Shown piece by piece: positions 14,649-42,394 of a stretch of 64,000 nucleotides of DNA. Position 1 is the first letter of the stretch. Every line of letters starts with the position of its first letter. Origin of the DNA: Astropecten irregularis (lineage: Eukaryota; Echinodermata; Asteroidea; Paxillosida; Astropectinidae). Position numbers and translations under genes: made by a program. The DNA is taken from NCBI GenBank assembly GCA_963971285.1, contig OZ020248.1, positions 3,906,001-3,970,000 of the forward strand, written 5' to 3'. Below the pieces are notes generated by a model. That model was not told where the DNA came from and made no database searches. It saw only the letters and a program-made list of their open reading frames with translations.

Positions 14649-16935
14649 CCCAAGACAAAAGACATGATGGGGGTGTTAGAGTAGGAAACAAAAAAACTAT
14701 GAAAAATAGATGAAACAAATTAGTACTTTCCATTTCCAATACAATAAAATATGTAACAGACAAATTTGCCGAGTCTGCATTTCCATCTCAGAAAATAAAA
14801 TATCTATCAAATTTCAAAAATAGTCAAAATCAATTCCTAAATTATTCAATTCCGACCGATTCGGCGAGTTTATGTTTCACGAGAAGACAGTAAAATAATC
14901 CCCTCGTGTGTTTTTTTCCCCAAAGAAAAGAAAAAAAACGAGGGGATTCTGCGTTCTGGGGTGGTGAAACCCGACTAGCCATCGACGGTCGGCTTTCCAG
15001 CCTTATCCAAACGTCTTGTGTCTGTTCGTTTCTATCAAGACAAATCTCAGATTACCTTGGTAACCATGGTGATAGATACAAATAAATAGACCATGGCTCA
15101 AAGGGGTACTTGAAAAAATAACTGAATTGTTTAAAATTAATTTGCGTAAAAAAAAAAAATTCTAACAAATAATCTGTATTGACATTGTGCGTCCGTACTA
15201 AATTCAAAATTTCATTTCTCGAAATGATGAAAAAAAAAAACAAACAAACAAACAAGGAATACATTTAGATGCATTGTTATGGATACAATGTCTTTAAAAA
15301 GCATAGTTAGTTGTTTATGTGTATTCGATGAACAAAATTGACAAAATTTAGCTTAAATTTGAAACTTGAAAAACAAAAAACAATGAAAAACCCCTAAAAC
15401 ATTTCATGAAAAGTCTCCATTAAAACCTGTTATCATCCCAGTATCATGAGTTTTGATTCGATTTCTTCTTCTTCTTCTTCTTTTTTGGTCAGTAAAAGCT
15501 AAATAATCCTGGCAGCCATCCAACTCGTTGTCACGGTAATTGAGTCTCAGCAGGCCAATTGCCGGTGCCTGGGGAGTCCCCGGGGGGTGGGGGAGCAGGG
15601 GGGAGGGATTTAATGATCTTCGGATCTGACGTCCCTTGGAATATCCACCCTCCTGCGCTCATAATTATACATGTAATAACATCATTTGCCCGATACCGTG
15701 CTGATCCCCATATGAAAATATGAGATTCACGATACATTTTTTTAAAAACATTAGCGGGGAGTCTGGGGCTAGACCGAGTGACGCATTTGTGTGACGTAAC
15801 CAGAGGCCTTGAATGGTGACGTTATACAAAAATCTATGAGGCTCATTAATAGAAGCTCATTTCAATCATCATAATATGCAATCATTATAAAACCTGATGG
15901 ATATTATATATATTTGTTTTTAACAAAGAAAGTTCATCAATACAAGTAATGATTGATAAACTGCTGCAAACCGCTCATCAGCCAAAATAATGACCGAAAC
16001 TTATAAAATGCTTGAAGTTAGGAGGGCCTAGCAGGAGAAGAAAGTTTTCCTTTACTTATACTGGCACAAGAAAAGGCATTTCAGGTTCATCATATTTTGT
16101 CTGATTATAGAGGTAACCTGTTTATGACCAGCCAGCCCACAAACAAACCAACAGACTGACCAAACAACCAACCACTAATCAAATCAACCAAATAATCACA
16201 CAAAAAACATCCATAGGCCCCTATACAGGGATGTGATTTGCAGCCCGAAAACAAAATCTGAAAACACGAAAGGAAAAAGCTGAAATTCAAAAGTTCATAT
16301 TTTGTACACTGGAGCAGATGTACCAAAAAGCTGACATTTTGAGTTTAAAAAAATTGACATCAGATTAAAATTTGAAGTCTCACATGCCTGGATATACAAA
16401 TAGAAATAGCCAATTCAAAGAATTTCTACAAATCTCATTCCAAAAAAATTAATCATTTTAGATACTGACACCTCCCCCCCCCCTCCCCTGAACACATTCT
16501 ACTTCAAATGAAACACTTATTTAAAGTGATGACATCATCTGATTTTAAAATAATTACGTCTTTGATCTACGACGCACAGATCGGTCGTCTCGAGTCGAAA
16601 AAGCCCGCACTGTAGACAATGTTTCGTATAGTCAGTGTACGTGTGCGCAACACACACTAAGTTTATATAAAAAAGTAATAGTACAGTCGCCACTCGCACA
16701 CACTAAATAGCCTAAAAAATCCTGCCAATTTCATCATGCAATCGAGTTTTAAAAAGATTCTAAGCCTTCACGACTTAACCTCTTGAATGGACCTCAGGGA
16801 CGGTAGGTGCGAGAGGGAAGGAATGGAAGAGCCGGCCAAATTGGAACTCTGAAGAGCCTACGTGACTGAAAAAGAATCCATCTATCAACAAGTGTGGAAC
16901 CGAGAGACTCAAAGACATAAAATATGCCTTGTGTA
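14649..16935. other. No supported gene
   Basis: AT-rich DNA with adenine runs and a (TTC)n tract at about 15467-15483. A short segment near 15958-16030 belongs to the dispersed repeat also seen at 24880-24990. Open frames here lack splice context and recognisable domains. Confidence 0.5.
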
Positions 16936-17315
16936 TTAAAGGCAGCGTACAGAATTGGCAAGGCCTCCAAAAATAAATTACCGGTATTGAGTTAGAGACA
17001 GAAAATGGACTCGACAGTTCGTAAACAATGCAAACAGTCACCATGGGAAATCTTGGTTCATCATATGCTGGGGTTTTCAAGGAAATCAAGATGTAGTGTC
17101 TTTTAAAAAGATCGTTCGTCCGAACGATCTTTTTTGCATTTCGAAAGCGTGGTGTAACCGTGAAGGATTCGGAGGGGGCAAGATTATTTCAGCCGTATTT
17201 CTACTATCCAGATGAAAAAGGTACATGAAACAACATCTGTAAGGAAGTTTAAGACCTTCACTTCTGTTTATTGTACCAAATTCAGCCAAAACGCACAATC
17301 ATATGGTCCCTTTAA
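16936..17315 (+). mobile_element. TTAA MITE, family C
   Basis: TTAA borders with ends AAAGGCAGCGTACAGAATTG and CATATGGTCCCTTTAA. It is the inverted partner of 12687-13084. A 16-base local palindrome around 'gatcgttcgtccgaacgatc' at about 17110-17130 is a notable internal hairpin. Confidence 0.8.
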
Positions 17316-17664
17316 ACCTGGTCGTGTCTTGTTATAATGTGGCCCACTTACGGGAGGCTCTATTTTCTGTGCAATTAATGTGGATTCAACAGCAGGTCTG
17401 GGTTTCACTTTTGGTTTTGTGGGATTTATCGCTTTTACAATAGGTTTTTTGGTTCTTTGGGGGTTTTATCACTTCTTTCTCAGGTTGGCAACTCATTGCA
17501 GACGTGACAAGTAGTCAAGTTGAGGGAAAGAAATATTTCCTGTCACTTGCAAGATATTTTCCATTTTAATTAGCCTTTCAAAAAGAGCCTTCTAGAATAG
17601 AAACGTCAAGCTGCTCCTAAATCTAAAAATGTTTAATTTAAAATTGTGAACACTGTCTTAACGT

Positions 17665-17826
17665 ACATGTATACCCTCACACCCATTTACACCTGGGTGA
17701 AGAGGAGCAATATTTGACAAAGCATCTTGCCCAAGGACACAAGCACCATAAGCCCATGGCTGGATTCGAACCCACAATCTGTAGATTGACCACACAAGAC
17801 CTTGAGTGCGACACACCAGAGACCAG
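17665..17826 (-). mobile_element. tRNA-derived SINE, 5' half, inverted
   Basis: Reverse complement of the 92-245 type. It contains 'cacctgggtgaagaggagca', 'cttgcccaaggacacaagca' and a B-box complement GGATTCGAACCC. It abuts the palindromic MITE at 17826. Confidence 0.7.
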
Positions 17827-17960
17827 CGGACGATTTCACAAAGCCCTACGATCGGTCGTAACTCAAGTTATGAAGGATAACCCTTCGTATCCCACGCGTA
17901 GGGCTGCAATGCATCACGAATGATAGTAAGTTCCGATTAGTTTGGTGAAATCGACCCCAG
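17826..17960. mobile_element. Palindromic MITE, GAAATCGACCCC family
   Basis: From 'cgatttcacaaagccctacg' to 'tttggtgaaatcgacccc', with the family centre 'cgtagggctgcaatgcatca'. Single copy directly joined to a SINE fragment. Confidence 0.75.
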
Positions 17961-19254
17961 AATCAATACATTTTCCAAATCACACTAAGAACATGACAAA
18001 TACTTGAGCAACAAGACAAAAGTATCATAGAATCTGCAACATGCACAGATTCAACTGCAAACCAAAACAAAAACACCGAAAAAATACTGTGAAAAACAGG
18101 AGGTATAGATTCAAAAGTGAAGTCCGTAGCAGGAAACAGGATTAACCTGAAAAAGAAACAACTCCCCCCTTTTCCCAGGGGATTTGGAAAAGAAGTTGCA
18201 AGGCCTTCCCCTCCCACAGTTAACAAAACATCTTGAGCCACACAATCTGCGCAACAACAACAAATGCTACACTCACGCTCTCCCCTCACAATAAACAAAA
18301 AGCAAGAAATTCGGGGGGGGGGGGGGAATTCAAGAGAATTCAAAAAATTGTATCCTTGATTCTGCAGACACAAAGAATGACGACGATTCGTGAAGCTTCA
18401 CTTCATTTTTTTATACGGCGTGATCAAAGGACTGCCCCCCCCCCCCCCTTCCTCGAAAAAAGAAGCTACGTGTTTATGTGCAGTTGCCGTGGATACAAAT
18501 GTACATGGTATTTATTTCCAGTTCCAATTCAAACTAGACTATCTAGACTACATGCAAATCGCATTAGCCTCATTGGGAGTGTTTGGGACTGGCACTTAAG
18601 CAACACACGAGGGCGCAATGAATAAATCTTGTGTCAAGTTCCTCATGTTCGTTCATGAGCAGTAAGTAACACAATGCTACAATATGGCCAATTGTGCATA
18701 GCTATACTTTATGTAGCTTTCTAGGGGCCTGTTTGTTTAATGCACCGGATCCCAAATTTTGGGATCCATGTCATATGCAGGGTACGCTAAAATGGGATCC
18801 GGATCCGCAGGATTCGTCATAAACAAACAGGCCCTTGAATTCACCTTCTTTCGAAAATAATCATTATAATATGCACACTAAAACCAATAAAACCAATACA
18901 GTATAATTATGTGCAATAAAACATATTTTAGTAGAAACACTGCAGACGACATTTATACAAATAATGTATCTTAGTAGATATGTAAAATTGGCACAGCCTG
19001 GCTTTCATATGTCAACAATTACCCAATATGCAATGCAAAAAAAAATCTAGCCAATCAAATGCAGAATATATTCTGAATCTTGCATATATCACAAAAGGGA
19101 CATATCTGTTTTGTGTTACACACAAATATGAAGCAATTGGACAACCTAATTTGAAAATTGGGTCTGAATCTAGATTGAAGTGACTTTTAGAGGTTTTTGC
19201 TAAGAAACATGGACGGAGATGGTCATGCCCCAAACTGATACTTTCAGACTGACC
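17961..19254. other. No supported gene
   Basis: Contains G-runs and C-runs (about 18313-18326 and 18436-18450) and the palindromic element at 18725-18834. Minus-strand open frames near 18000-18370 are cysteine- and proline-rich translations of low-complexity DNA. The missing 3' exons of the large gene could lie here or further left, but I could not identify them. Confidence 0.45.
18725..18834. mobile_element. ~110 bp palindromic MITE, GGGCCTGTTTGTTTAA ends
   Basis: Left end 'gggcctgtttgtttaatgca' and right end 'cataaacaaacaggccct' are inverted repeats around a 'ggatccc...gggatcc' core. A second copy is at 62677-62834. Confidence 0.75.
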
Positions 19255-19690
19255 AGTCATTTTGTATCAAGTGGACCAGACGTTGACCAAGTAATGATTG
19301 CAATGTAGGTAATAACCAGTGAATAATTACTGGATATTAGTTAAACAATGAACTGGTCATCATATGATTTATCACCGGTTAATGGTCCAAATAATGACCA
19401 GTCAATGGTTAATTTTAAACCAATGAAAAATTGTTGGTCAATATCAAAACGGCTAGAGATCACAGTCAAGTACCATGATGACCAATGAGAAATGACCGGG
19501 CGGTCAATATTTCCACAAGTCCAATAATAAATGACCAGACACCACTCAACTTATGACCTGTCACAAGTAAAAGTAAATGACAGATGGTCAACGGTCAACA
19601 CTCCAACGTGAATGGATGGTCAATAAATGACCAATGACCTATGGGTAATAAAATGAATGCCTTACCATGATACCAATGAGTAATGACCAA
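19255..19690. repeat. Degenerate TGACCAGT/AATGACC repeat array
   Basis: About 430 bp in which 'tgaccagt', 'aatgacca', 'ggtcaat' and close variants recur every 10-25 bases without a fixed period. It looks like an old minisatellite that has drifted. It continues for a few bases beyond the MITE inserted at 19691. Confidence 0.6.
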
Positions 19691-19858
19691 TAGGGCTCTG
19701 CGCTTGAGCTATTTATAGAATACGCCCTTTGTTATTGACAGCTATAGTTACCAGGATGTTCGGACAAACATCACAACGTTTACGTGTAAGTTAATGTGGC
19801 AACGTGTGACTTGTTTGTCCGAACTTCTGAATGTGACGTCACATGTGCGGAGCCCTAT
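19691..19858. mobile_element. MITE with AGGGCTC...GCGGAGCCCT ends inside the array
   Basis: Starts AGGGCTCTGCGCTTGAGC and ends TGACGTCACATGTGCGGAGC + CCT. Inverted internal blocks 'gttcggacaaac' and 'gtttgtccgaac' confirm the palindrome. The ends resemble the elements at 42395-42585 and 51299-51513. It interrupts the TGACCA array. Confidence 0.7.
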
Positions 19859-19948
19859 TGACCAGTCAATTACTGTCCAACTAGCCGGTGTCAACTACGA
19901 AATTACGAACAACAACTTAAGGAATAGACAAAAGAAGAATCCGCTTAC

Positions 19949-22900
19949 CTCTTTATCACAACTTGCAAAATAGACGTAACACTTGAAAGCCTTGGAAATA
20001 GTACACGTAGTATCGCTGATGAAAAAAAATCAAAAGAACAAAATCATTCCAACGGAAATTACACCCCGAGGCCCCAAAAATTTAACATGAAAATACTTTG
20101 GACAGAAAAAAAGTGTAAAAATCACTCAATGAAAAGGAGAACTGTGATGATTGGAAGGGTGTGGCCACATGAGAATAATAATGGAAGTTTATGTAAATCA
20201 GGCCTGCCACACCAAAAAACAAAGACAATAAACAACTTCAACAAAACTAACGAGGTGAAATAATTGTTTCTCAATTAGTTCTTCCCTTCTGATAAAAAAA
20301 AATCATTATTTTCGATATTTTCAAATGAAAAACCATGAAAATAAATTGCTGTGATGAAAATGTACAGGCAGAACTAATTGAATTATGAACCTTATACACC
20401 GCCTGAGGTTGAATTGATTTTTATAATGTTTCATGGAATGGGGAGGGGCCGAGAAAGTGTGTGTGTGGGGGGGGGGGGGGGGGGTTAGTGGTTGCTCTAA
20501 CATCTTGGATTTCCCACAGGGGCCAATTTCACATCCCTGCTTAGCACAAACAAATTTGCTAACCATGGCATTTCTGTCTTAATAATAAAAACAGGATTGT
20601 TACAACCAAATTTCCATGTGTTGTATCACATGTTTTTTTGGCTGTTGTTTGCTGAGCATGAATATCAAAATGGAATTTTTAATGGTTGCTTGTTTTATCG
20701 AGCAAGACATTTTGTGCTCAGCAATTTTGTTAGTGCTTAACAGCTCCATGAAATTGGCCTCTGGACCGTTATAACAGATTTCCTAAGCGTTATTCCATGT
20801 ATTCTCATTGAGGTGATTCCTACAGTATCATTGGGCCACTAAGGTGACTCTGTATTACCATAAACTATAAACACACTCCCCCACCCCCACCCCCACCCCC
20901 ATCTCTAATGTCAATATTACCTCCCCACACCCCAACAAAATTTGTCACTCGATCTCCAAGGAGTATTACCCCACATACTCAGTTTTCAAGATCACGTCGT
21001 TCCGTCAGTCATCTCAAAACTCCTCTCCATTATTATATAAATGGTGTCCCTTTCTTAACGTCCTCGATATGAGGTCAGCTTTCCACTCTACTAATCTTGT
21101 CATCAGATCTCCCAGTCAGTGTGCAATATTTTTGTTCCGGAGACAAAGTAGTACATCTCATCATGATGATTCTGAGATGGAACATGTCCAAACGCCGAGC
21201 TAGCTAGACATTTTATGTCTCCAATCCATTTGACATGATAAAAATCGTAACGGATCCGCACAAAAAACCCAGGTCTGTGCTTACCCAGCGACGTAGGCAA
21301 AGTACAGCAGCGCGTCGACACGCCGTCCGCAGGACGAGATCTCCGGATAGCAGTGCTTCATGAAGATCTTATCTTCCTCCGTCGCTTCCCAGGTGATAAG
21401 ATTGGTTTCGCCCAGCTCCAGTAGAACATCCTGCCACGGCCAGAAGCCACACAGTCAACGACATGAAAAATATCATGTGACATCCGAGTACGGGAAGCCG
21501 GAGTGGTTTTTAGGCAAATTAAAACAAGAAAACAAAACAAAAACCCTGTTAAATCTTGGGAAGGAGAAGTAATTCTGCTTCGGGCTAATAAAAGGAAATG
21601 TGTTTTCTTTTATACACTATAATACACTACCATTAGCAAAGATGGATTTAGATTTTGAAATCTGCAGAACTTCCGTATGCTTATCTTCAGCTGACTGCTG
21701 TTGGGTTTTGTTTTAAAAGTGAAATGTCTTCATTTGTTTTTCCCCAAAAACCTCAGAGGCCTTTAAAGGTACTGTCATACTTTGGTAGCATACCGAAACA
21801 GAAATATTCACAGATTTACCTATAACTTGGTAGAAACATACCGTTCAAATTTGTCTGCCTAAAATGCTGTAGTTACCCAGAAAAGAGTCAAACCAATGAC
21901 CAAAAACAATTTTGATCTTTTAAAGATCTAAAATAATGGAGAAAATATTTTTAAAAAATACTATGGCTGTTTTTCACTGTTTTCTCAAAGAGTGAGCAAT
22001 TAATGTATGGGACTGGAAATTTCACAGATGAGCTGTTACTGTATCTTCCTTGATATTTTTGCCCATGAATCTACACTTCTTTTGACAAAAACCAAAGTAT
22101 GATATAACCTTTAAAACAGAACACAAATTGCAAACTGTAGATCTATAACTTGTTTAAATCAGATTCTGTAAAAACATACAGTTGAAGTGGTGGGGCCTTA
22201 AAAAAAAAGAAAATTTGATTTACTTTCTCTACAAGCAATAAACTACAGCCGGATCGATACGTCGGGCCTTCCTAACTCTAGGCATTATAGATTTTTATTT
22301 TCCGGTCACCCTTAATTTGGAAGGCCCATTTTTTAGAATGTTTTTCTTCCGTATTCGAGTAAATTTTACTTTAATCATCAAATAATCACAAGGGAAACTG
22401 ACTAAATTCAGTCCGTTTCCCTTGTGGTTATTTGATGATTATATTAATTAAAAAGCCGTATCCTCTTTGAGTGATCCCCCATGTACCATTCCCAGGTTGC
22501 AGCATTGCTTGCATGTATCATTGAAACGATACCTGGTGCACGGCGGTATGTGCGTGGTTTCATGGCTTCTGACTGCCAAACGAACAAAGATAATTGACTA
22601 TTGGGGTCACCACCAACGTAGGGCTGGATAGCTCAGTTGGTAGAGCACCTGTACGGTATTCAGGAGGTCGCCGATTCGAATCCCGCTCCAGTCAATTTTT
22701 CTTTGTTCACTTTTCAATGACTTTATTCATTCAGTTTCCCTTGTGGTTATTTGATGATTACAATTTTTTTTTCATAGAAGATAAATTGGGAAGGGAAGAG
22801 GGGACCGGAGGGGCTTTAAAACTTATTTGTCAAGCGTGCATGGCATTTTTTGGAAGTTTTAAATAAGTTTTGACAAAAGTCTCACCTTGTATTTCTGAGA

Positions 22901-25900
22901 AGAACCGATGAACGGAAAAGAATAGAAGAAAACAAAATTAGTAGAATGTTGAAAAAATAAAAATTTTCGGGTGAATAAACACAACGGACAGGAAATGGGG
23001 ATTTAAGCTACAGCGTAAAGGCATTTAGTAATAATACATGTTCAAATATAGCAAATGTACCCAAATGTGGGCAAAGTCTCAAAACGAATCAATCACATTT
23101 TGTTCAGTAAACACGTATTTGTCCCTGGTATTCATCACTGGTATTCATCACTGGTATTCATCACTGGTATTCATGCATTACACACTGTCCCTTCATTCAG
23201 TGAATCTCTGGCGAGCAAATAACACAGTTATGTCCCGAAATGAAAGAGCAAAATATCAACATTCTGAGCAAATATCAATACACTGAAGGAAATTGCTTCC
23301 ATCATAATGGGGGATTTTTTACTGTAATCTGTAAAGCACTCCTAATGGGTTTCTAAATCCTGCTATAAAGTACTATACACTCACCGATGAATTATACCCG
23401 CAATCCTTCAGTACTGTAGAAATAGCGCTCTCTATTACTGAGGTTCCCCCCTCCTGCGTAGAAGACAGAATTTTGATTTGGTTTAGTTTAGAATATAGAG
23501 GCATTTTGTTTCAACCTTTTCAAGAAAATACACTTTGTTTTAAAATTCTATCAGCCCGATCAGTGTAACACTTAAAGGTAGTATCATACTTTGGTTTTTG
23601 TCAAAGAAATACAGATTCATGGGCAAAAATACCAATACAGATACAGTAACAGTCAACTGTGAAAATTTCAGTCCCATACGGTGCCCACTTTTTGAGAAAA
23701 CAGTGAAAAACAGCCATAGTATTTCTGTCAAGTCTTTTCTCTTTTATTTTTGATCTTTTAAAAGATCAAAAAGATTTTTGGTCGTTGTTTCACTAATTTC
23801 TGGATAAATACACCATTTCAGGTGGTATTTTAACGGTAGGTTTCTACTAGCATCATCTTCATACCCTGAAAGTTATACGTAAATCTGTGAACATTTCTGT
23901 TTTGGTCTCTTACCAAAGTATGATACAACCTTTAAATCAACTTCTAAGATAACACAATTTTATGCAATAAAGGTAACATCATACTTTGGTAGCATACCAA
24001 AAACAGAAATCTTCACAGAATAATCTATAATTTGGTCATGGTAGAAACATACCGTTCACATTTTTCTGCCTGAATTGCGGCTTTTTTCCACAAAAGAGTA
24101 ATAAACCAAAGACTAAAACAGTTTTAATGTCAAGGAGATAAAATCTCATGTGGACAGATTTGAAAATACAATGAGTGTTTTTCACAATTGATGTTATGTA
24201 GTCCCCATTCAGTCCCTCACACTGAAACAAATATGAAGGCCTACATTATCTAGGATCAATTGCTGGAATTAATGCCTGGACAGATTTTGGTTGGGTTTTT
24301 TTGTCAAATTTATTCCAATTCTGTGTCTGGTGCATCAGCGTCATGTGAACATTAAATTAAAAGTGAACTGGAACGGGATTCGAACCAACAACCTCTAGAA
24401 TAATGTACCGGCACTCTTACCAACTGAGCTACAACCCTACATTGTATATAGGTTATTTACGTGACGTCATTGGCCGTCAAGCACAATGATTGCACACGCG
24501 AAACAATACGCTTCAGTGCACACACAACGTACAGTGTCCTACGGGTAACCATGGACAACATAGAAAAGCTTGATGGCCAATCACGTGATTTTATGATGTC
24601 GGTGAATAACCTCTTTACATGTATGTAGGTGGTGTCCCAAATAGTTAATTAACTTTGTTTGTTAGGCAGTCAGAACATTATAAAATCTCTCAGATTTCTT
24701 ACCCTGCCAACAGAAGTACAGCCAACATACTTCACTTTATGTACAGAACTGAAAATTAAACAAAAGAAGAATTACACTTTAATGAATACATAAAGAAGCA
24801 AAGAAAAAAGCTAATGTTCAACCTAGTGCAGCAAAGCTGTCAAGGCTCGCTGCAGCCTTGCATGTTAGTTTACCAACAAGTAATAAATTGCTGCAAACTG
24901 CTCATCAGCCAAAATAATGACCTGAATAAAGTGCTTGGAGTAAGCAACGTGTTAAAAACGTGTCAGGCCCTCCTAACTCCAAGCATACTAAATAAATGTT
25001 TAACATTTCACGTGTACGGCCCAACAGACAGACGGATGTCCATATTGCCTGACAGGATGGATGTATGGATTGTACTATTACATAGGCTCACTCAGCTTCG
25101 CAGCTCGCCCCAAAAGAGTAATAAACATCTGAAATTGATATAATTAGTGGTTTCTCTTAGGCTTGGGCCTTTGACAGTGGCAAGGTGATATTTCTTTCCA
25201 GCGGCGATTAACAATGGACTATAAATGGTCAATGGCCACACCTTAAAAGTGGACGCCAAACTGAAGACCAAAGCAATAAATGGTATGGACTTTGAAACAT
25301 TCAAGAGGTTGATGAAGGAAATACTTCAAAGAAGCAAAGAAAAAGTCATTGAAAAGTGAGCAGGATTCGAACCAGTGACCTCCGGCACTCTTACCAACTG
25401 AGCTATCCAGCCCTATGTTCATTTTGGCAGTCCGAAGCCATATTAACCAGTCAGCTGCCCTTGTGATCATTGGATAAAAAGAAAAACTTTTATGGAAACC
25501 GACCGACCTTCCGCTTAGCTTTGGCAAGACTTCCTTTTCCTCGTCTTTTGATGACTTCCGATGGAGGGTAGGATCTCGGTCGAGGGGCACCTTGAAACCT
25601 TCATACTCATCCCTCAAGACAGACAAGATGTCCTTCACATTGTAGAAGACCTTACCACTTCGTAGATGACACTGTTGGAGACAAAAAAATGCTTCACAGA
25701 GTTGACTTGAAAAGGGTTCACCATCGGCCACTTAGCAAACATTACGCAGCTCCATAACTAGTACTGCATATCTTAAAAAAGGCCTCTAATCATGAAGAAA
25801 ATAAGTTAAAGCTCATCACTGCCTCGGTTACTATGAAACTCATTATGAGTTATGAGTCACCATACAAAAAGAGTAAAAAACTGTTCGAAAAGAGATTTTA

Positions 25901-28900
25901 AATCATGCGCAGCTGGTAAAATATAACCAAAGTGTGATGTCTTCATAATATATGCAATGACCCGTGGACGAGTACATTTTGGTTGACACTCCAATTATGA
26001 ATGCAACCCTTGCCTCCATGCTTTTCTTGCTTGGAATGGCAACGCAGCACTAGCGCATTTTGGCCACTACGTACTCTGGCGTGTACGAACGTGTGGTACT
26101 AGACTGTAGTACATGGAGTGTCTACCAACAATGATGTCACAAGCCCTTGCTTCAAGATTAAGACGTGACCTCTGTTTTTGAGATTCGCCGATAAGAGGGG
26201 AGAACAGAAAATCGCGTTTTTTGTTGATTCCACATAATCTCCTTTTTAATCTAATTGTTGGGGTGTCAGTATTGCCAAATAAGAAGCATTATAAGAAGAA
26301 AAACACTAATCCACTCATTTTATTTGAGCACCACTTTAAGAAAGGAAGCTGATGAGATAACGAGGACAGCTTTGCACTGGACTCCAGAAGGAAGGAGAAG
26401 GCGTGGTCGGCCCAAGAACACCTGGCGACGGACCGTGGAAAGTGAAATGTCTAACCTCAACCAGACCTGGGGATCACTTCAGAGATTGGACATTCCTGAT
26501 TCATATTTTTGTGGAGAAGGGGCATGACCGGGAAGGGTTTCAGAAATAGACTTCTGAGGTGAATTTCTTTTTGTAGAAATTACAGAAAAATTCAAAAGAT
26601 GATCGATGAAATAGGATCTTTTCAGCACAGAATTTTCTGCTTTCATTTTATGCTTACAAGCATAGCCATGAAATTGGGCCCAGATGATTCACATTATTAA
26701 ATTGGATAATAATTTATCTAATTTATAGATAGATTTATAGCTCATACCTTTATGACTGATATATACACAGGCCATCCCTCGTGTTGCTTCAATAGTGCAG
26801 GGATCTGTTTGAAGAAAAAAAAAAGATTATTTAAACAGCAATTCACAGGGAGATAATTGTAGACGGTCTTTTTCAACACTGCGATATGTTGCTTTCTTCC
26901 TTGCACTAGCCAAGCCATTGGCATGATTCCAGGGGCCTTTTCAAAACCTCTGCTCCAGCTCCGGCTTCGTATCTGTCATCCATATGCAGAAAATATGGGT
27001 TGTGGTTTTTCATTGAAGCTGAAGGTTTTCTTTTTCAAACCAGAGAATCTACTTCCGAACTGCAGACAAAAGCCTCTATTTTGATACCTGTTATTTTAGA
27101 AAAGATTCACCAAATGGAGCCGGAGCCAGAGCCTGGGCTGGTTTGGAAAAGGTCACATTCCTCTATGCCACATCCGTCTCTACCACGCCCCCTCTCAACC
27201 ACACCCCTCTCTGTCACACGCCTCTCTGCCACACTCCTCTTGGCCACAACCCTCTCTACTCAGCCCCTCTCAACCTCTCTGCCACACGCCTCTGTCACAC
27301 CCCTCTCTGCCACACCCCTCTTGGCCACACCCCTCTCTACTCTGCCCCTCTCAGCCACACCCCTCTCAGCCACACTCCTCTCAGCCACACCCCTCTCAGC
27401 CACATCCCTTTCTGCCACACCCCTCTCAGCTACACCCCTCTATGCCCACAGCCCTCTCTACCATGCTCCTCTCAGCCACACCCTTCTCTGTCCCCTGATT
27501 CATGCCCTAGACATCACTTACCTTCCCTCCTTTGGAGCTGCCATACAGTGATTCTCCATACAGCTCATCAAGTATATCACCCGGCTCTATCCTGTCCTGT
27601 AAAGTACAGGGGCAGTGAAATACACAATTTTATGTTATTAAACTTCACGTCCAAGACTTTGTCCACAAGTTTGGCCCATGTCTCCCTAAACCACAAACTG
27701 GCCATACTGCTTGACAGACTGTAAACTTTCTTACAAATGGCAAACCAAAAAATGCTAGCCAATCAAAATGATCTTATACTGAACACAAACTAAGCATACG
27801 GTACACCAAACTTTACTCTACAAAAGGCTGTTTTATTTCAACTGGTTTTTGTCTTCTCTCCGATATGGCTCTTTAAATAACATGGCAGGGTCCACAGAAA
27901 TGATCCATTATAATGGCCGCCTATTACAGCGATTTAAACAACAATGTTTGGTATGTTTTGAACACTGTTTTGCCCAGTACAGCCAAATGTTGGAAATAAC
28001 GGCTTTACATGATTTGTATGACTTACTTTATGGGCGGCCACACTGTCAATTTTGACCTCGGCGACAACGACCCTCTGATTGAGATGCCTGATGACCACGC
28101 CCAGATCTTTACAGGGAACAAACTCGTACTGTCGGTAGACGGGCAAGGTCCACGTTTCATCTAGAAAACTTGCATTCTGTTAGGAAACCGACATGATGAG
28201 TGATGAGCCAAACAAAAGAATCATCAAATAAACGGACTAGCATCCTTTTGAGTGATTCCCCAGTAAAACCGTTTCTCAGGTTGCAGCATTGCTAAAGGTT
28301 GCACGTATCTTAAATGATCCTTGGGATATAGCGGTATGTGAGTGGTTTCATGGCTTCTGACTGCCAAACGAACAAAGATAATTGACTATTAGGGACACCA
28401 CCAACATAGGGCTGGGATGGCTCAGTTGGTAAAAGCACTGGTAAAGTAACAAGGGTGTTACAGGTTCGAGTCCTACTCCAGTCAATATTTCTCTGAGTAT
28501 GTTCAGCTTTCACTGAACAAACGATGAAAAATCAATAATTTGAGATATCATCTGATCTAAAAATGAGTCTGAAAAAAACAGCGTGGGGCATTCTACCAAG
28601 TTGGGGCAGGATTCGTGATGGTGTACCCGTTTGCATCAGTAAACTGGCACCTTTTATCATCCCTTTACTTGATGGTGCACATTCACTGTTCTTCAAATGA
28701 GAATGAAGTCAATCTACTCCTTGAACAGGGGGAAACACTCACATGCTATTGATATAATTAATGAGCCACCGCCGTTTCATATGAACATTGTCAAATCCTG
28801 CCCCTTAATAATCTTACCTTTATATTGAGGTCAAACTTGATTTCGGAGGCCCAAAATAAAAGTGAAGTCAGTGATTCTGGACAAAATAAAAACAGATATT

Positions 28901-31900
28901 AAAGGCAATTAAAATTGCTATCTCAAAATATAAAAACAAAACAAATTCATGTATGCAAATGCGTACACTATATTTCTTATAATTATCACAATTACATTTG
29001 TATGCATCATACAATATGGCCAAAAAACAACTTCTTAATGTTGAAAAAGGTACCAGCATATACACACAGTATATGTACAGTACCAGCAGATTACCAGTCC
29101 CATGCACCTGCCAGAGTTTATACAGGAAAACATTTTGGCTGGTAATCTTTGTTTGCTATAAAAGTCAAACTTGTTTGGTGCTTAGCAGTTCTGAGTATTT
29201 AATACCATGTAAATGCTAATTATACACAATTTTTATATAACATGATACAAGCAGTGCAGAATTTGTACTTAGTATAAAATAATATGACTATTTTGATCCA
29301 GTCTTCAGCTATAGCGTACTTTCATATTGCAACCAATACTTTCTTTGATATCTGTTTATAAAAAGCTGGTACAGTGTGTACATGTACTGTATATTCAAGG
29401 AAATTCCATCTGAAAACATGCAAAACGGTACCAGTGGAATGCACACAAAGTCCTATACAATAACAAACATTCATTTGTTGTTTTCTCATGAACAGATTTT
29501 GATGATATTTTCACAGGTTAGTTTTCTGAAACTTTATTTGCATTTTATTTTAAAACTACCGGTAGACTGATAGGAATGAAAGGTGTTCTCCAAATTAAAA
29601 GGCAACATGACCAAAACTTTTTGAAAAGGAAAGCAAATAAAAAATATCGCTCTGAAGATTCAACTCTGTTAAAGCCGAAGTAAGTTTTGCATTTTGAGAA
29701 TTTCCGACACTCACCTACAAGAAGTTCACTGCCAATAATGGACATCAAAGGGTCGTACCAGATCTTAGAAGAAAAACAAGATGGACAAATAACAAAAAAT
29801 TAGGGGTTAATAATTAAGGGTTAATGTTAGCTACGGTTTGTTTGTTTTTGTTGCCTTCGTAATGATTTCATCCCTTCATAACTGAATCTAATTAAGCTCC
29901 CAACTCCAAGTGCCACAAATATTAATAGCACACCAATTTGGGCTCATCGGTTACCAACCAAAAGACACAATTATTATTAAAGGTAGTATCATATTTGGTA
30001 AGAAACCAAAACAGAAATGCTCACAGATTTACGTATAACTTAAAGGGTATGATGATGGTGGTGGTAGAAACATACAGTTAAAATGTTTCCGCCAGAAATG
30101 GTGTATTTATCCAGAAATTAGTAAAACAACAACAGAAAATCTTTTTGATCTGTTAAAATTAAGATAAAAAATAAAAGAGAAAAGACTTAAAGGGTCTCTG
30201 CAATGCGAATATTATGGCCTGAACATGTGCCAATAAAAAAACTGCACATGGGGATTGTGATTTTACCCACTTCCTCACACTGATTCAGGGTTAAAAACAG
30301 GTTTTTCATTTTGTATGCTAATTAGCATTTCCATATTCATGAGTAAAACTGTGATGTCATCTGGGGAACTGACAGCAGTAACTCAATTGATTTGTGCACA
30401 AAAAGTTGCGGTTGTTTTATAGGTTTTCTGACAAAACTTTCCCCCTCAATGGTTTTTTTTGTGCTGAATATGTTCCTTCCACTTAACTGGTGGTGTAATT
30501 TTTTTGACAAACCATTTCTTGGGGTCATGTTTGCCTCTTCATTTGTTTATGTTTTTTCATTGAATTTTGGCTGTTGGTTCCCTACATGAGTATGCATGAA
30601 AATCCCCCATTTTGCAAAGCCGTTCAAAAGAAAACCAAATGCTGGTTTGAAACCAAAATAAGACTTGCCATTCATTATTTATCAGTATATTCTCTGTATG
30701 AAGACAATAAAATAACCTGACTAAAAAAAGCACTGCAGCCGCCCTTTAAGAGATACTGTGGCCGTTTTTCACTGTTTTCTCAAAAGGTGGGCACCGTATG
30801 GGACTGAAATTTTCACAGATGACTGCTACTGTATCTGTCTTGATATTTTTGCCCATGAATCTGTATTTCTTTGATAAAAACCAAAGTATGATATTACCTT
30901 TAAATACATTATGACATTTTGTCCCCAGCTCAGATTCTAATCTTGATAAAGGGGCCCACACCAATCGGACTAAACACTTTACACACTAAACAAGTACATA
31001 GTATTATATCCTACCTCCAGCATGTGTGGGTTCTTGAGAATTTGTTCCACAGCCACGCCCAGAATCCTCTTATGCAGACAGATACGGATCAGGAGACGGC
31101 CACGCCCCTGGTGGGATCTCACCTAGATTCAAACAGGAAATTGTAGGGAATTCTTGTTTTAAAGGTACTATCCCACTTGGGAAGGAAAACAATGTTCACA
31201 GATTTACCTGTAACTTACAGGGTATAAAGATGGACCGGACAGTACAAACATACCGTTAATTTTTTCCGCCTGAAATGCTGTATAAAAAAAACCCTGAGAT
31301 AAATAAATAATGAATAAAACTTTTTAGGCCTTGAATCGGCTAGCTAGTAGTTTAAAGGTTTATCATACTTTGGTAAGAAAACAAAACAGAAATGTTCACA
31401 GATTTACGTATAACTTGCATGGTATAAAGATGCACTTGGTGCAAACATACTGTAAGAACATTTCGGTCTTTTGTTTTACTCATTTTTGAATAAATACCCT
31501 GATACAGCATTTCAGGCAGAAACAATTTTACGATATGTTTGCACCAAGTGCATCTTTATACCATGCAAGTTATCGTAAAAATCTGTGAACATTTCTGTTT
31601 TGTTTTCTTACCAAAGTATGATAAACCTCTAAACTACTAGCCGATTCAAGGCATCAAAATTTTCATTCATTATTTATTTATCTCAGGTTTTGTTTTTATT
31701 TCTTACCATCTGAGCTGAAACGGACACGGTTTGAGATTTCATCTTGAATTTCAATATATACCTACCTTGTGTGAGGACTTGCACGCATCAATGGCCATAG
31801 ACAGCATGGGATGGAGTCTGTATGACAGAAGCACCAGAACGTCAAAAAACCAGGTTACTAAGTATATGACTAATGGCCAGGGCTCAAAATATCCACTAGA

Positions 31901-34900
31901 CCGTGGACCGAGTCTAGCGATTTCATTGTTGGTCCAGTATAAAGGGTGTACTGTACTAGTCCGGCTGTCTAGTCATTTTGTTTTCCTTGCACAATTTTAA
32001 AATGGTACCTAAATTGATGATTTTGTGGCTTTATTTCTTACTTTATCAACACAATTTATTGAATAAAACCCCACACCTTTTGAGGAATGTCATTTTCAAA
32101 GCTACTGTACCATCAATCTTTCTTGTAATTACATGTCGTTCGACTTCACTACAAAAACAATTATGTTCTTCCTGTCACACAGTGTTACAATGCATATAAT
32201 TACTGTTTTTCTCATGATATGCCACATGTCTAGTGAAAAAAATTCAGGTCTAGTAAAATGCTTCAGTTACTAGACCTGGGGCCGATTTCATAAAGCTCTG
32301 CGGCGCGGCACAACTCGATTTGCGACGCGTCCTAGCTAAAACGCGTCGCATCTATGCGGTGAGTCCATAAAGAAAGGATGCGTCTTAACTCTGCGACGCG
32401 TCGTGAGTTTTATGAAATAGGCCCCTGCTGTCCAGACCATGTTAACACACAAACAACGATGGCAGAAAATTAAACAAACAAACTGGAAGGATTCAAACAA
32501 ACTAAAATATAACACAACAAAAAAATTGTGTACAGGTATTTATATCACCGGACAGCCAAACGGACAGAAGTATAACCAACTGGACAAACAGACCAAATAA
32601 AAATACAAATTATTTCATAAAACACATAATACTTAATATTCATATGGTACCATAATAAATCCCTGCTTTAAAAAAAAAGACAAAAAAAATAAACAAAATA
32701 CCCCCCCCCCAAAAAAAAAAAAAAAAAAAATGAATTTGAAGACTAACATATGGCCAAGCAATTAATAAATATAGCTTTCGTACCTGGCTCATAAAGGTTA
32801 TGGCTCAGACGCAGGCAGCCATAGTGTTCGGATGAGTGATTATATACATGTGCAAGTAATTGCATTTAAAACAAAATAGGCTGTTTTGCAGTGATAACCA
32901 TTGCAGGTGTTTTCAACCTGGGGCCAACTAGCACAACAATTTGCTAAGCATGACATGTCTGTCTTAGTAAAAACAGGATAAACAACAAAATTCCTGTGTG
33001 TTGTGTATCACTTGCAATTGTTCTTTGGCTTTTGTTCACTGAGCATGAATATCAAATGGGATTTTCAATGGTGGTTTTTTTTTTATTGGGCAAGCTTATT
33101 TTGTGCTAAGCAATTTTTTGTGATAAGCAGCTCTATGAAATTGGCCCCAGGCTATTACGAGGCCTAACTGGAAAGGTCTGTGCCTTCATATGCTGTGTTT
33201 TTATTCAAAATCATGACACCACGCAGGTATGTACACATGGAAAACTTTATGTTGATTTTGGAAAGCATACACTATGCACAAATAATTAACCAAGTTATAT
33301 TCTACTGTGCATACATACATGACATATGTACATTATGTAAATAATGTGCAATAAATGAAGAATCACTTTCCATTTAAATTGCACCAAAAAAAATCAATAC
33401 AAGTAAAAAAAAAACTAACGCAAAATGCTCTTCAACCAAAATAATTACCTGAAATATATATAAAATGAGTAAGATTTGACATTTTGATCCCAACAGGATC
33501 TCATAATCCTGTCAATGACTGAAAGAGCCTTTAAAAAAAAGCTAGCCTTTGAGAAAGATCCTGCTACGATTGAAACATCTAACACTAACCCTCTGCACCT
33601 ACCAAACAAGACAAAGAGCCGTTTACCACACATTACCACAGTCTCCACAGGGGGATTGGATCATAAACCACCCATTACCACACTGTGGTATATTGTGGTA
33701 GTCAGGATACCGCACTTACCACAGGAAAAAAAAAACATGTAAACTGTGGTATAGAGGTTATTCATCGACGTCATAAAATCACGTGATTGGCAGTCAAGCT
33801 TTTCTATGTTGTCCATGGTTACGCGTAGGACACTGTACGTTGCATGACACTGCATGAGCACTTTGAAGTGTATTGTTTGGCGTGTGCAATCATTATGCTT
33901 GACGGCCAATGACGTCACGTGAATATCCTCTATATTTAAGTGGGTTAGGGTTAATCCTCACCAAAATGCCAGGTACTTTACATACAATGTACCATTTCAC
34001 TTCTAAATCTGAGTGCACGGTATATTAATCTTCACCCAATCACACTATAACTGAAACACAATATACCAGCATTTGTATTGGGCTCAATAGACTGTGACAT
34101 TTCCATATGTTCATGCATTTTGTTTTGTTTTCCCCACTCGTTTATCAAGTACATGCAATGTAAAACTACCAGTAAACATGAAAGAGACTGTATTTCCAGA
34201 TGTCCGATTGAGCTCAAATTTTCACAGGTTTAAAATATCATGTACAGTATATGTTTGACGGATCAGGCAAAGTATGAGTGCTGTTCTGTGACCTTTACTA
34301 ATCATGTATTATGAATGATCCTTGGCATATAGCAGTATGTGAGTGCTTTCCTGGCTTCTGACTGCCAAATGAACAAAAACGGATAATCGACTATTAGGCC
34401 GCACCTTTTTATTACTGTGATTCTCATATCTTTTTCACCTTGAGGGAGGGCCGGTCGGTCGAAAAAAAAAGAAGTTTGGTGGAGAAAAGACATCTGGCTG
34501 AATACCGGCACAAAAACACAAAGAAAACGATGAGAAATGTTCATTGATTTCACTGTAATCTCGTTTAAATTTTTTTTTTTTTTCTGTGATAGAAAGTATA
34601 AAAAAAGGTAGGCATATTGGCAAAATTTGTATCCAGAAATTCTGGAATAAAAAAAAAAAAATTCTTGAATTTACATTACCCCAGTATGTCATTCTGGACA
34701 GGGTAGGCAGCAAAAAAAAGTTCATTTTTTTCAGTCGGAGCCCAAAATATGGGTCGGTCGGAAATGAGAACCACAGTAATAAAAAGGGGCGCCCTTTGGG
34801 ACACCACCAACATAAATGGCTAAGTAGTGAGTCAGTTGGAAGAAAACAAGTATGATGTTCATTTCCAGAAGAAAAAAAACGCAGCCAAGAATGTATACCT

Positions 34901-37012
34901 TTGAGCATGAAAGTTACTCGATACTAAAACTTGCCCGCTTTTTACAAATAATTTTTTAAAAATGTAAAAGATGGATTTCTGTTACCTTTCACTTGAATGA
35001 GCTGCTGCTTCCATCCAACACCAGTAATCTCTCTTGTACAGACCAAAGATAGAACCTGGCTCTAAGGAAAATAAAAACAAACATATATTCATTTTTCTTT
35101 TTTCATAAGGTACTACCCCCGGTTTTTAAAACAAAGTTATACTCAATTAATAAGTAAACCTACTTGGTCCAGAGTGGGTCCAGGATTTTCCGAAAGGGGG
35201 ACGTGGAAATAAAATGCTAAATGACTGACATTATGTTACGCTGGGCCACGAAAGTAGCAAACTTAACAGTGACGGATACATTTTGGGGCAATCAAAGCCT
35301 GAGAAACTGCCAAATTTAATTCTGTCTCCCCCTCTTTTTTCTTCTCATTTTGAGTCTTTTTTTTTTAGTCTTTTTTTGATTTAATAAGGTGCCATTTCAC
35401 TGACAAGAAACAGGGACATGGTCAAAATTTGTTCCCTAACTTGGTGGAATGATGAGCCTTATCTGCATCGTGTGTAGACTTACTCTTGATGCCCTTCCTG
35501 AATATACCTTCCACCGTCTCACAGAGTATTTGAAGGTCTGGGTTACTGTCTCTAATTGGTTGCTTGCTCTCCTTCAATCTCAACAACACAGCTATTAATA
35601 AGAGACGGAACAAATCATTTTGTTTTAATATGTAATAATTCATCATAGGCCAAACACAATACACACATTATGATACTGAGAAATTCCAGATAGGTATTTA
35701 AGCCAGGAAATAAGTATTTCTTTTTAATTTCTTTTTAATCTAAAATATACCGTATGGTCTCTGGAAATTGTTAGCCATTTCCGGCTTTTCGGCGATTGTG
35801 AATACAGTAAAAGTAGGTTCCAAAACTAGTCTATAAAAAAACCGAAATAAAAGCCACTTTTGTGACGTAATGTAACCCGTTGGTGGTTATATTTGTGGAA
35901 AGAAGGCAGGGCTTAGGGTAAAATGGTAACCAAATTGCTAAATTTCATATACAAGCAGACGAGATGCTTTATAATCTGAATATAGTCTGGTTTCTGCTCT
36001 GATTTTCGGACGACTCTGTTGGGTCTGCTTACCAGACTAACCAAACCAGAGAAAACAGCATGTCGTGGCTTGAAAGGCTGTTTTAATTTTATAAAGCAGG
36101 TAAGAACTAAGAAGATTGTATTTTTATACTGTAAATTTGTAATATTGTAGAAATTTCTTCAATCTGGGGTAACGAACTCGGGAACATTTGCTGAAAGTGA
36201 AAAATATCATTTTGGATAAACCGACTTTAGATCCCCAAATGACAACAAAGACACCACAAATCTGCTTGAAAATCGCCAATTCTCTTGTCCAAAAAACAAA
36301 ATGTCAGGATAAAATTTAATATGTAAAGCATTTTAGCCGGACCCTATTTATTTAAATGCACAGTCTTAAGCTAGGCCTATACACCCAGTAACTGCGGCGC
36401 TGAACTCCCTTATTCAATTTTGGCTCCGAAATGACTCAAAATTATCGTCTGTTTTTTCTTAAAAACACATCGATTAATATTAAAATGGCTTTGACTTTTG
36501 AGGGGAAATTATGTAAAACAGTAACAAAAAAATGCGCCATAATTTACAGACGAAACACTCAATATTAATTATTATATAGTCTGGTTTCCGACCTGATTTT
36601 TACGACTCATGAGATTGTTGGGTTGGGTACCAGACTAACCAGGCCAGAATGTCGGTGATTGGCTGCTGGTAGTTTGTGACAAAATGGAGACGCGCGTCTG
36701 ACAGGTTGTTTTCAAGTTCGCAAGAAGAGGGCAAGGAAATTGTATTTTTACACTGAATTATTGTCGAAACATGTTCAATGTAAGGGTTTCAGGACTCAGG
36801 AACATTTGCTTGAAGTCACAAACCTCGTTTTGGAAAAGTAGAAGCTAAGTTATAGTATTATTTTCTATTTTGTGAAAATAATCCTGTTGTACTAAACTGA
36901 GGTAGGCCTAACGTTAGGCCCCTAAGTTCCTAACCCCGTGTAAACACATCATCAACAATCACTGATCACGCCTACCTTTTAAGTTACTAAGTAGCGGATC
37001 TCTGGTTGCCAT
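19949..37012 (-). CDS. RUN-PDZ-PTB domain protein, 3' end not found
   Basis: Sixteen exons in one continuous reading phase: 36976-37012, 35484-35591, 34986-35061, 31766-31817, 31015-31122, 29715-29763, 28818-28876, 28027-28176, 27522-27596, 26748-26804, about 25500-25671, 24703-24734, 23385-23453, 22886-22894, 21285-21430, 19949-20015. They give about 422 codons with no stop, so more exons lie to the left. The start is ATG at 37012 (MATRDPLLSNLK). Residues 1-165 read as a RUN domain: an early LQILCETVEGIF helix, then FGLYKRDYW, then GRGRLLIR, then a final helix with FDLNIK. Residues 187-257 resemble a PDZ domain (DLGVVIR, EPGDILDELYG, GWPVYISVIK). A charged linker follows. Residues 315-422 resemble a PTB/PID domain (VKYVGCTSVG, YPEISSCGRR, YFAYVAG, KCYVYFASC). 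RUN domains bind small GTPases, so a trafficking adaptor role is inferred. The exon 11 donor is weak (GTTTCC); a strong alternative GTAAGG inside it, also in phase, would skip the linker. Confidence 0.8.
20518..20764. mobile_element. ~240 bp dispersed element, AATTGGCC ends
   Basis: From 'ggccaatttcacatccctgc' to 'ccatgaaattggcctc'. A second copy at 32909-33149 shares 'gagcatgaatatcaaa' and 'ttttgtgctaagcaattttt' type blocks. Short inverted ends suggest a MITE. Lies in an intron of the RUN-PDZ-PTB gene. Confidence 0.7.
21763..22114 (-). mobile_element. TTAA MITE, family A (intronic)
   Basis: TTAA borders, left end AAAGGTACTGTCATACTTTG and right end CAAAGTATGATATAACCTTT. The interior is the inverted family A sequence. 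Sits between exons 14 and 15 of the RUN-PDZ-PTB gene. Confidence 0.85.
22374..22760 (+). mobile_element. Foldback plus tRNA-derived SINE (intronic)
   Basis: A hairpin at 22374-22444 has arms 'aatcatcaaataatcacaag' and 'cttgtggttatttgatgatt'. Then comes a SINE body, a tRNA-like head at 22619-22692 (A box TAGCTCAGTTGGTAGAGC, B box GATTCGAATCC) and a repeat of the 'cccttgtggttatttgatga' segment at about 22738. The tRNA-like part can form an acceptor stem and D arm, but T-arm mispairing and the same loop in other copies (for example 58455-58575) mark it as a SINE. Confidence 0.75.
23125..23174 (+). repeat. 13-bp minisatellite, four copies
   Basis: CTGGTATTCATCA is repeated nearly four times in perfect register. 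It is too short and unspaced to be a CRISPR array. Confidence 0.9.
23572..23935 (+). mobile_element. TTAA MITE, family A, well-preserved (intronic)
   Basis: Starts TTAAAGGTAGTATCATACTT and ends CAAAGTATGATACAACCTTT + AA, with TTAA at both borders. A decayed inverted copy follows at 23970-24190. Confidence 0.9.
23970..24190 (-). mobile_element. TTAA MITE, family A, truncated
   Basis: Left end 'taaaggtaacatcatacttt' and a short stretch of family interior. The right half is deleted. Only about 35 bp from the preceding copy, and in the opposite orientation. Confidence 0.75.
24365..24447 (-). mobile_element. tRNA-derived SINE head, inverted
   Basis: The reverse strand reads TAGCTCAGTTGGTAAGAGTG with B box GGTTCGAATCC and a trailing CCAGTTCACTTT, like 25340-25425. 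It is called a SINE because of this shared non-tRNA tail. Confidence 0.65.
24446..24620. mobile_element. MITE with GGTTATT(T)AC...TGACGTCA ends
   Basis: Palindromic element from 'ataggttatttacgtgacgt' to 'gatgtcggtgaataacctc', with a TGGCCGTCAAGC/GCTTGATGGCCA inverted core. An inverted second copy is at 33752-33938. Confidence 0.7.
25340..25425 (-). mobile_element. tRNA-derived SINE head, inverted
   Basis: The reverse strand carries GGATAGCTCAGTTGGTAAGA and GGTTCGAATCC with the 'actttttcaatgacttt' type tail. It lies 75 bp downstream of exon 11 of the RUN-PDZ-PTB gene, in the intron. Confidence 0.7.
26270..26527 (+). mobile_element. Non-LTR retrotransposon fragment (C-terminal end)
   Basis: The plus strand encodes ALHWTPEGRRRRGRPKNTWR followed by 'RTVESEMSNLNQTWGSLQRL', a layout common at the C-terminal end of animal LINE reverse transcriptase ORFs. 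Only about 85 codons remain and the upstream enzyme domain is missing, so this is a dead 5'-truncated copy. It is antisense within an intron of the RUN-PDZ-PTB gene. Confidence 0.65.
26930..27155. mobile_element. ~230 bp dispersed element, GCTCCGGCTTCG family
   Basis: Starts near 'ttttcaaaacctctgctcca' and ends 'aaaaggtcac'. It shares 'ccagagaatctacttccgaa' and 'gtggtttttcattgaagctg' with 37396-37655. A partial start of the family appears again at 63955-64000. GC-rich outer ends are inverted repeats (TCCGGCTC / GAGCCGGAG). Confidence 0.7.
27163..27487 (+). repeat. ~15-bp minisatellite (CCACACCCCTCTCAG)
   Basis: About 20 tandem units of 'ccacacccctctcag' and variants (some 14-mers and 30-mers). 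Because the period is mostly divisible by three, two long overlapping open frames (183 and 193 codons) run through it. They translate as SATPL and CHTPL repeats and are artefacts. It lies just downstream of exon 9 of the RUN-PDZ-PTB gene. Confidence 0.9.
28240..28505 (+). mobile_element. tRNA-derived SINE, long copy (intronic)
   Basis: Body 'gtttcatggcttctgactgc' and 'gaacaaagataattgactat', then a tRNA-like head TGGCTCAGTTGGTAAAAGCA and GGTTCGAGTCC. Same arrangement as 22450-22700 and 34320-34860. Confidence 0.75.
29977..30903 (-). mobile_element. TTAA MITE, family A, split by a nested TTAA element
   Basis: The outer copy has TTAA borders with ends AAAGGTAGTATCATATTTGG and CAAAGTATGATATTACCTTT. 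At 'agaaaagact' the family sequence stops and resumes after 30749 with 'gagatactgtggccgttttt', which is continuous in other copies (13665-13690). Confidence 0.9.
30187..30749. mobile_element. TTAA MITE, family D, nested in family A
   Basis: Starts TTAAAGGGTCTCTGCAATGC and ends CACTGCAGCCGCCCTTTAA, with TTAA at both junctions. Inside are 'tgctaattagcatttccata' and unique AT-rich sequence without a long coding frame. It sits between exons 5 and 6 of the RUN-PDZ-PTB gene. The TTAA is duplicated by the insertion, as expected for this transposon class. Confidence 0.85.
31160..31289 (-). mobile_element. TTAA MITE, family A, truncated
   Basis: Left end 'ttaaaggtactatcccactt', then 'acagggtataaagatgg' and 'tccgcctgaaatgctgtata'. 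The rest is missing; the break abuts the large palindrome that follows. Confidence 0.65.
31290..31692. repeat. ~400 bp near-perfect palindrome built on half of a family A MITE
   Basis: Left arm: 'ctgagataaataaataatga', 'ccttgaatcggctagctagt', then a family A end and 'ggtataaagatgcacttggt'. The right arm repeats all of these inverted ('accaagtgcatctttatacc', 'ctactagccgattcaaggca', 'tattatttatttatctcagg' nearly). Arms of about 170 bp enclose roughly 60 bp. The inverted duplication includes about 55 bp outside the MITE, so it is larger than the element's own inverted repeats. It is intronic, 75 bp from exon 4 of the RUN-PDZ-PTB gene. Confidence 0.85.
32278..32427. mobile_element. ~150 bp palindromic MITE, GCGACGCGTC core
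   Basis: Begins 'ggggccgatttcataaagct' and ends 'gagttttatgaaataggccc'. Several inverted GCGACGCGTC/GACGCGTCGC blocks give a strong hairpin. Single copy in this window. Confidence 0.75.
32909..33149. mobile_element. ~240 bp dispersed element, second copy
   Basis: Matches 20518-20764 in order and orientation ('catgacatgtctgtcttagt', 'actgagcatgaatatcaaat', 'tatgaaattggccccagg'). Confidence 0.7.
33752..33938. mobile_element. MITE with GGTTATT...TGACGTCA ends, inverted copy
   Basis: Reverse-complement partner of 24446-24620: 'agaggttattcatcgacgtc', 'gttgtccatggttacgcgta', 'gacggccaatgacgtcacgt'. Confidence 0.7.
34320..34860 (+). mobile_element. tRNA-derived SINE split by a MITE
   Basis: The SINE body 'ggcatatagcagtatgtgag' to 'gataatcgactattagg' is interrupted, then resumes with 'gacaccaccaacataaatgg'. 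Uninterrupted relatives at 28310-28420 and 22530-22620 show these parts are normally contiguous. A decayed family B fragment precedes it (about 34200-34320). Confidence 0.7.
34398..34795. mobile_element. MITE inserted in a SINE, GCACCTTTTTATTACTGTG ends
   Basis: The left end 'gcacctttttattactgtga' pairs with the right end 'ccacagtaataaaaaggggc'. An inner CCGGTCGGTCG block pairs with 'gggtcggtcgg'. The interior has T- and A-runs only. The 157-residue minus frame over it is not a gene. Confidence 0.75.
35965..36235 (+). repeat. Direct repeat, copy 1, intron 1 of the RUN-PDZ-PTB gene
   Basis: Shares 'atagtctggtttc', 'gttgggt', 'accagactaacca', 'attgtatttttatactg' and 'ggaacatttgct' in order with 36577-36845. 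The copies are about 610 bp apart and moderately diverged. Confidence 0.65.
36577..36845 (+). repeat. Direct repeat, copy 2
   Basis: Second copy of the unit above. It also holds a CCAAT-box-like 'gtgattggctgctgg' about 310 bp from the exon 1 end on the opposite strand. No transcript is evident. Confidence 0.65.
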
Positions 37013-42147: not shown

Positions 42148-42394
42148 CGTGGACTGAATTTGGGAATCTGATTCGAGAGAAATTCACTACGGTGGACGAA
42201 AGAATGAAACGACCCGTACAGTGTACACCCACTTCACAAAATGAATAGCCTACTGCAAGCACAGCGTATACTGTTGTGTGTACATGTACAGTAATGGAAA
42301 TCTGTGAACAGATCGTATACTAGTCCGTGAAAGGGCAACATTATTTGTCTGTCTGGCGGGCAAGGTCGTGATAGACTTGGCTCAAGTCGTGTCT

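Follow-up and report, generated by a model that had tools for sequence, protein, structure and literature searches.

The locus considered here lies on the minus strand of a 64,000-nucleotide stretch of Astropecten irregularis DNA (contig OZ020248.1; hereafter the window), and it raises the question of whether a RUN domain, a PDZ-like module and a PTB module are carried on a single protein chain, whether such an architecture has a known counterpart, and what a protein of this make-up could do in the cell. Reading from 37012 to 19949, a chain of 15 exons was assembled, with 37012–36976 as first exon and 20015–19949 as last, in place of the 16 exons counted in the sequence-only reading of this DNA. 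Translation of the spliced exons gave 421 aa, free of stops and with unbroken phase, and every one of the 14 introns had GT-AG borders, where 13 are counted between exons and the 14th is the donor of exon 15. As the gene model of a three-module adaptor family, these 421 aa are nearly complete.

The coding character of the stretch was interrogated with an exon chainer devoid of domain knowledge, which combines generic splice matrices with a codon table taken from neighbouring cytochrome P450 genes; first exons are outside the scope of such domain-blind chaining. The first chaining was trained on seven P450-like stretches totalling 1042 codons, with four underlying open reading frames matching Pfam p450. 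At a penalty of 4 it recovered 13 of the 14 internal exons among 15 chosen, the remaining two lying outside the model, and at penalties of 6 and 8 it recovered 11 of the 14 with 12 chosen. The score at penalty 4 amounted to 129.9, against 23.7 for the plus strand of the same stretch and 12.1 and 11.5 for the two strands of 19900–2830. Since part of the background of this run came from two control stretches and from an intron of the RUN-PDZ-PTB gene itself, the chaining was repeated with a cleaner set, comprising 592 codons from Pfam-matched P450 parts only, a both-strand background from the whole window and five controls. In the second chaining, the internal exons recovered numbered 10, 6 and 5 out of 14 with the penalty set to 4, 6 and 8 (extra exons: 0, 1 and 1); the scores were 85.9, 66.3 and 52.4, and the best control reached 10.2, 6.3 and 4.3. 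As the chain scores stood far above the controls in both runs, the stretch is coding well beyond the controls, though blind chaining leaves some exon borders unfound: exons 2, 3, 13 and 15 were not recovered by the second chaining at any penalty (4, 6 or 8), and their support comes from splice sites, phase and domain matches.

Along the minus strand, exon 1 (36976..37012; aa 1–13) supplies the start codon, an ATG at 37012 that has an A at −3 and is closely preceded by a stop in the same frame, and closes with the donor gtaggc. The RUN region starts in exon 2 (35484..35591; aa 13–49) and proceeds through exon 3 (34986..35061; aa 49–74), which holds the FGLYKRDYW motif, both exons being supported by splice sites and phase and chosen in the first chaining. 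Exon 4 (31766..31817; aa 74–91), exon 5 (31015..31122; aa 92–127), which contains the RUN block with GRGRLLIR at aa 97–104, and exon 6 (29715..29763; aa 128–144) were likewise supported by splice sites and phase and were retrieved by both chainings. Exon 7 (28818..28876; aa 144–163) reaches the end of the Pfam RUN match at aa 163, and exon 8 (28027..28176; aa 164–213) combines the end of the RUN region with the first part of the PDZ region; the two were chosen in the first chaining and, at penalty 4, in the second, which at penalties 6 and 8 took exon 8 in a shorter form, 28106–28027.

The PDZ region continues in exon 9 (27522..27596; aa 214–238; RIEPGDILDELYG), supported by splice sites, phase and domain match and recovered by both chainings, and finishes in exon 10 (26748..26804; aa 239–257), found in the first chaining and in the second at penalties 4 and 6. 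Exon 11 (25508..25671; aa 258–312), found in the first chaining and at penalty 4 in the second, is the linker that joins PDZ to PTB in phase. The PTB region opens in exon 12 (24703..24748; aa 312–327) with VKYVGCTSVG, an exon missed by the first chaining at penalty 6 and found by the second at penalty 4, and runs on through exon 13 (23385..23453; aa 328–350), missed by the first chaining at penalty 6 and by the second at all penalties. The PTB core, with ISSCGRR and FAYVA, falls in exon 14 (21285..21430; aa 351–399), which has splice-site, phase and domain support and appears in both chainings. Exon 15 (19949..20015; aa 399–421) bears the PTB strand FKCYVYF and leaves the 3' end open; the first chaining missed it at penalty 6 and the second throughout.

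Comparison of the protein with Pfam placed three modules in order along the 421 aa, namely RUN at aa 35–163, PDZ_2 at aa 187–256 and PID at aa 316–417. The RUN match (PF02759) of the full protein reached an E-value of 2.3e-13 and 50.8 bits, over the curated cut-off of 22, and covered model positions 2–130 of 131. The PID/PTB match (PF00640) gave 9e-4 and 19.7 bits with the full protein, just below the cut-off of 20.9, and rose above it with the excised region (2.3e-5; 24.9 bits). For PDZ_2 (PF13180), 0.0061 with the full protein lay below the curated cut-off and the excised region (5.9e-4; 20.5 bits) was still below the cut-off of 27, while PDZ (PF00595) returned 13.1 bits for the excised region against a cut-off of 23.2. 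Among solved structures searched with phmmer, the nearest relative of the RUN region was the RUN domain of FYCO1 (PDB 7bqi; E 6.3e-6; aa 17–172), the top matches of the PDZ region were PDZ chains of Dishevelled, none with an E-value below 0.74, which share the segment RIEPGD, and no PDB match to the PTB region was obtained up to E 10. NCBIfam, a prokaryote library, gave no match for the protein. Matches to Cdc42 (E 0.43 or worse, over the linker and the PTB start), to ACP53EA (E 0.023 at best) and to CFLAR, riboflavin synthase and triosephosphate isomerase were dismissed as chance.

Taken together, the Pfam and PDB results indicate from sequence that the RUN assignment is sure and the PTB assignment good, and that the PDZ domain is likely but divergent, for which "PDZ-like" is the safe wording. 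The earlier observation is thereby correct in its essentials, and the proposal of RUN, PDZ and PTB on one chain is partly supported: RUN, PDZ-like and PTB matches follow one another in this order on a phase-consistent exon chain, the RUN and excised PTB matches exceeding their cut-offs and the PDZ match falling under its own. It had also named EPGDILDELYG as the carboxylate-binding loop of the PDZ module; this segment aligns instead with RIEPGD of Dishevelled (E 0.74), which is a later segment of the domain. The position of the carboxylate loop is presumably taken by KDLGVVI (aa 186–192), in the exon before EPGDILDELYG, instead of by GLGF. The FYCO1 match of the RUN region ends (aa 172) and the PDZ match begins (aa 187) within one and the same exon, exon 8, which argues that RUN and PDZ belong together.

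The PTB (PID) match ends at model position 115 of 140 with the last helix missing. Candidate continuations in phase 0 were therefore sought on the minus strand over 40 kb downstream, that is in 1–19949 of the window and the next 20 kb, and were ranked by splice score, PTB-helix pattern, and codon and helix scores; a small PTB tail profile built from six PTB fragments of the same genome served to rank 662 candidates. The best candidate, at 3892400 of contig C11 (SKTILSSIALGFGRTTWFV, then a stop), attained 18.2 bits, against 14.4 bits for the top of 662 shuffled tails and 9.3 without extension, and it raised the Pfam PID score from 24.9 to 30.3 bits. A second candidate, at 9271 and with a poor acceptor, scored 17.5 bits, above every shuffle, and brought the PID score to 27.6 bits; an exon at 16857 with a good codon score brought it to 25.1 bits. 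Being 33.5 kb away and chosen among many, the exon at 3892400 is treated as a lead only, and neither the last PTB helix nor the stop codon was placed with confidence within the 40 kb downstream.

With regard to the surroundings of the gene, two tandem cytochrome P450 genes (40029–42183 and 45174–47486) lie upstream on the same minus strand, and each of them has two open frames with a Pfam p450 match, to the start of the profile in one frame and to its end in the other. Farther along the window, on the plus strand, the interval 55882–60772 contains an acidic open frame (55882–56307) with no Pfam match and a WD40 open frame (60458–60772), both of which look like GRWD1. A minisatellite (27160–27490; 15-base units, 22.5 copies, 72% matches) occupies part of the intron separating exons 9 and 10, and long low-complexity open frames run through it on the plus strand. 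Rfam returned two tRNAs that exceed its cut-off, at 22622–22694 (+) and 58479–58551 (−); the former lies within the intron that separates exons 13 and 14, on the strand opposite to the gene. Similar peptide-like strings, such as ENFSPIRCPLFEKTVKN, occur at 23544–23753 (+), 30746–30985 (−), 13578–13901 (−) and 7611–7769 (−), and their recurrence on both strands suggests a dispersed repeat.

The protein was further searched against the whole genome, an assembly of 475.7 Mb in 168 contigs. All 14 matches (14/14) fell at the RUN-PDZ-PTB locus, so that a protein search of this sensitivity reveals neither a second copy nor a paralogue. Profile searches of the same genome yielded 7 RUN and 10 PID single-frame matches; neither profile matched at the RUN-PDZ-PTB locus, probably because its exons are short. 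Elsewhere in the assembly, cox1 on contig C168 looks mitochondrial. Translated with genetic code 9, it has N for AAA in the motif STNHKDIG and at 4 other sites, and I for ATA in that motif, in agreement with the cox1 consensus, while code 5 would place K and M there; code 9 is used by echinoderms and flatworms, and the genome is taken to be an echinoderm's. A second, stop-free cox1 match on contig C131 (G000:C131:32162-33484) may be bacterial, from a symbiont or a contaminant. A third, partial match, on contig C25 (G000:C25:9951047-9952018), contains 7 TGA and may represent mitochondrial DNA copied into the nucleus.

As to whether the architecture is new, we take the CDD entry cd13168 (PTB_LOC417372), covering chicken LOC417372 and relatives, to describe uncharacterised proteins that begin with a RUN domain, continue with a PDZ domain and end with a PTB domain. 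This entry is a vertebrate one that has, like the present protein, RUN, then PDZ, then PTB in one chain, the likeness being one of description and not of sequence. The protein is most likely a member of this catalogued but unstudied family. The earlier statement that it has no obvious named counterpart is consistent with the human RUN proteins, none of which is known to have the RUN-PDZ-PTB order, but it is probably wrong in view of the chicken family. The stronger notion, that this architecture has never been catalogued before, could draw on the lack of a known human protein of this kind and on a literature search in which no description of a RUN-PDZ-PTB protein was found; we nevertheless deem it very improbable, as cd13168 assigns exactly that order to the chicken protein and its relatives. 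Two reviews on RUN domains (PMC7431699 and PMC3634510) use the words PDZ and PTB 0 times in their main text.

Whether the three modules belong to one gene was weighed against the possibility that two genes stand side by side on this strand, in which case RUN and PDZ would belong to a gene whose end lies around exon 10 or 11, and PTB to one that starts around exon 12. The connection between PDZ and PTB depends on a single linker exon followed by exons 12 and 13, which are weakly coding, their codon scores being −1.6 and −1.0 with a codon table trained partly on the gene itself; exon 13 was missed in most chaining settings and exon 12 in several. Owing to the smaller number of exons recovered in the second chaining, the probability assigned to two genes was raised slightly and stays low. 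Against such a division, phase is continuous from exon 10 to exon 15, the second chaining at penalty 4 runs from exon 11 to exon 12 and on to exon 14, and the chicken family has the three domains in one chain. Two separate genes are improbable, and a single RUN-PDZ-PTB gene is the reading we carry forward.

Several known proteins share parts of this design. FYCO1, whose RUN domain is the closest solved relative, is a vesicle-transport adaptor; it continues after the RUN domain with a coiled coil and FYVE and is not known to have PDZ or PTB. Its basic block is kept only in part, reading GKGR where the present protein has GRGR. PLEKHM1 and PLEKHM2/SKIP carry PH domains and are not known to have PDZ or PTB, and the match of the present protein to a PLEKHM-type RUN domain (8jc5_C) is weak (E 0.45). 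RGS12 and Mint/X11 unite PDZ and PTB in one protein as here and are not known to have RUN; RGS12 has RGS, RBD and GoLoco in addition, and in Mint the PTB stands ahead of the PDZ domains, unlike the order found here.

The identity of the RUN partner can be approached through the basic block. PMC5379943 reports that H60, R117, R119 and R123 of the PLEKHM1 RUN domain, and R92 and R94 of that of SKIP, are required for Arl8b binding; no paper on a PLEKHM1 RUN-Arl8 structure was found in the literature search. The arginines of GRGRLLIR, R98, R100 and R104, have the same R-x-R-x3-R spacing as R117/R119/R123 of PLEKHM1, a comparison by spacing that covers these three of the four PLEKHM1 residues. RUN domains are described as binding Rab and Rap GTPases in PMC7431699, and as binding motors and filaments as well as Rap and Rab in PMC7431699 and PMC3634510. 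An adaptor of the same build with a partner other than Arl8, be it Rab or Rap, or with no GTPase and a motor or the cytoskeleton instead, is accordingly a serious contender, to which we give somewhat less than an even chance. The retention of the three-arginine spacing that PLEKHM1 needs for Arl8b speaks for Arl8 and against such a partner, but this argument is weak because RUN domains at large may share arginines of this kind.

Our favoured reading, held with moderate confidence, is that a gene without a detectable second copy encodes a RUN-PDZ-PTB adaptor, most likely of the cd13168 PTB_LOC417372 family, that would link selected membrane proteins to the transport of vesicles. PTB domains bind NPxY-type tails and PDZ modules bind C-termini; combined with the presumed GTPase binding by RUN, these ligand types suggest a protein that a small GTPase would recruit and that would then act as a transport adaptor. 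In this mechanism, the RUN domain would bind a GTP-loaded small GTPase of endosomes or lysosomes (Arl8 or a Rab) via its R-x-R-x3-R block, and the adaptor would thereby sit on the vesicle. The PTB domain would bind an NPxY-type motif in the tail of a receptor or cargo, and the PDZ-like domain could add a second contact, to a C-terminal peptide, with the outcome that particular membrane proteins would be coupled to the movement of vesicles. We infer a single transcript for the RUN-PDZ-PTB protein, as well as all of its binding partners, its pathway and its transport role.

A bolder version, which we regard as unlikely, is that of a conserved deuterostome adaptor, absent from the human RUN set, that ties GTP-loaded Arl8 or Rab directly to NPxY receptor tails and a PDZ ligand, whereby a chosen receptor, and not the whole organelle, would call for lysosome or endosome transport. 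If the RUN domain does bind Arl8 or Rab and the PTB domain receptor tails, the protein would connect the sorting of receptors directly and physically with the movement of vesicles, and, as no human RUN protein is known to have this order, one would have to ask what has taken its place there.
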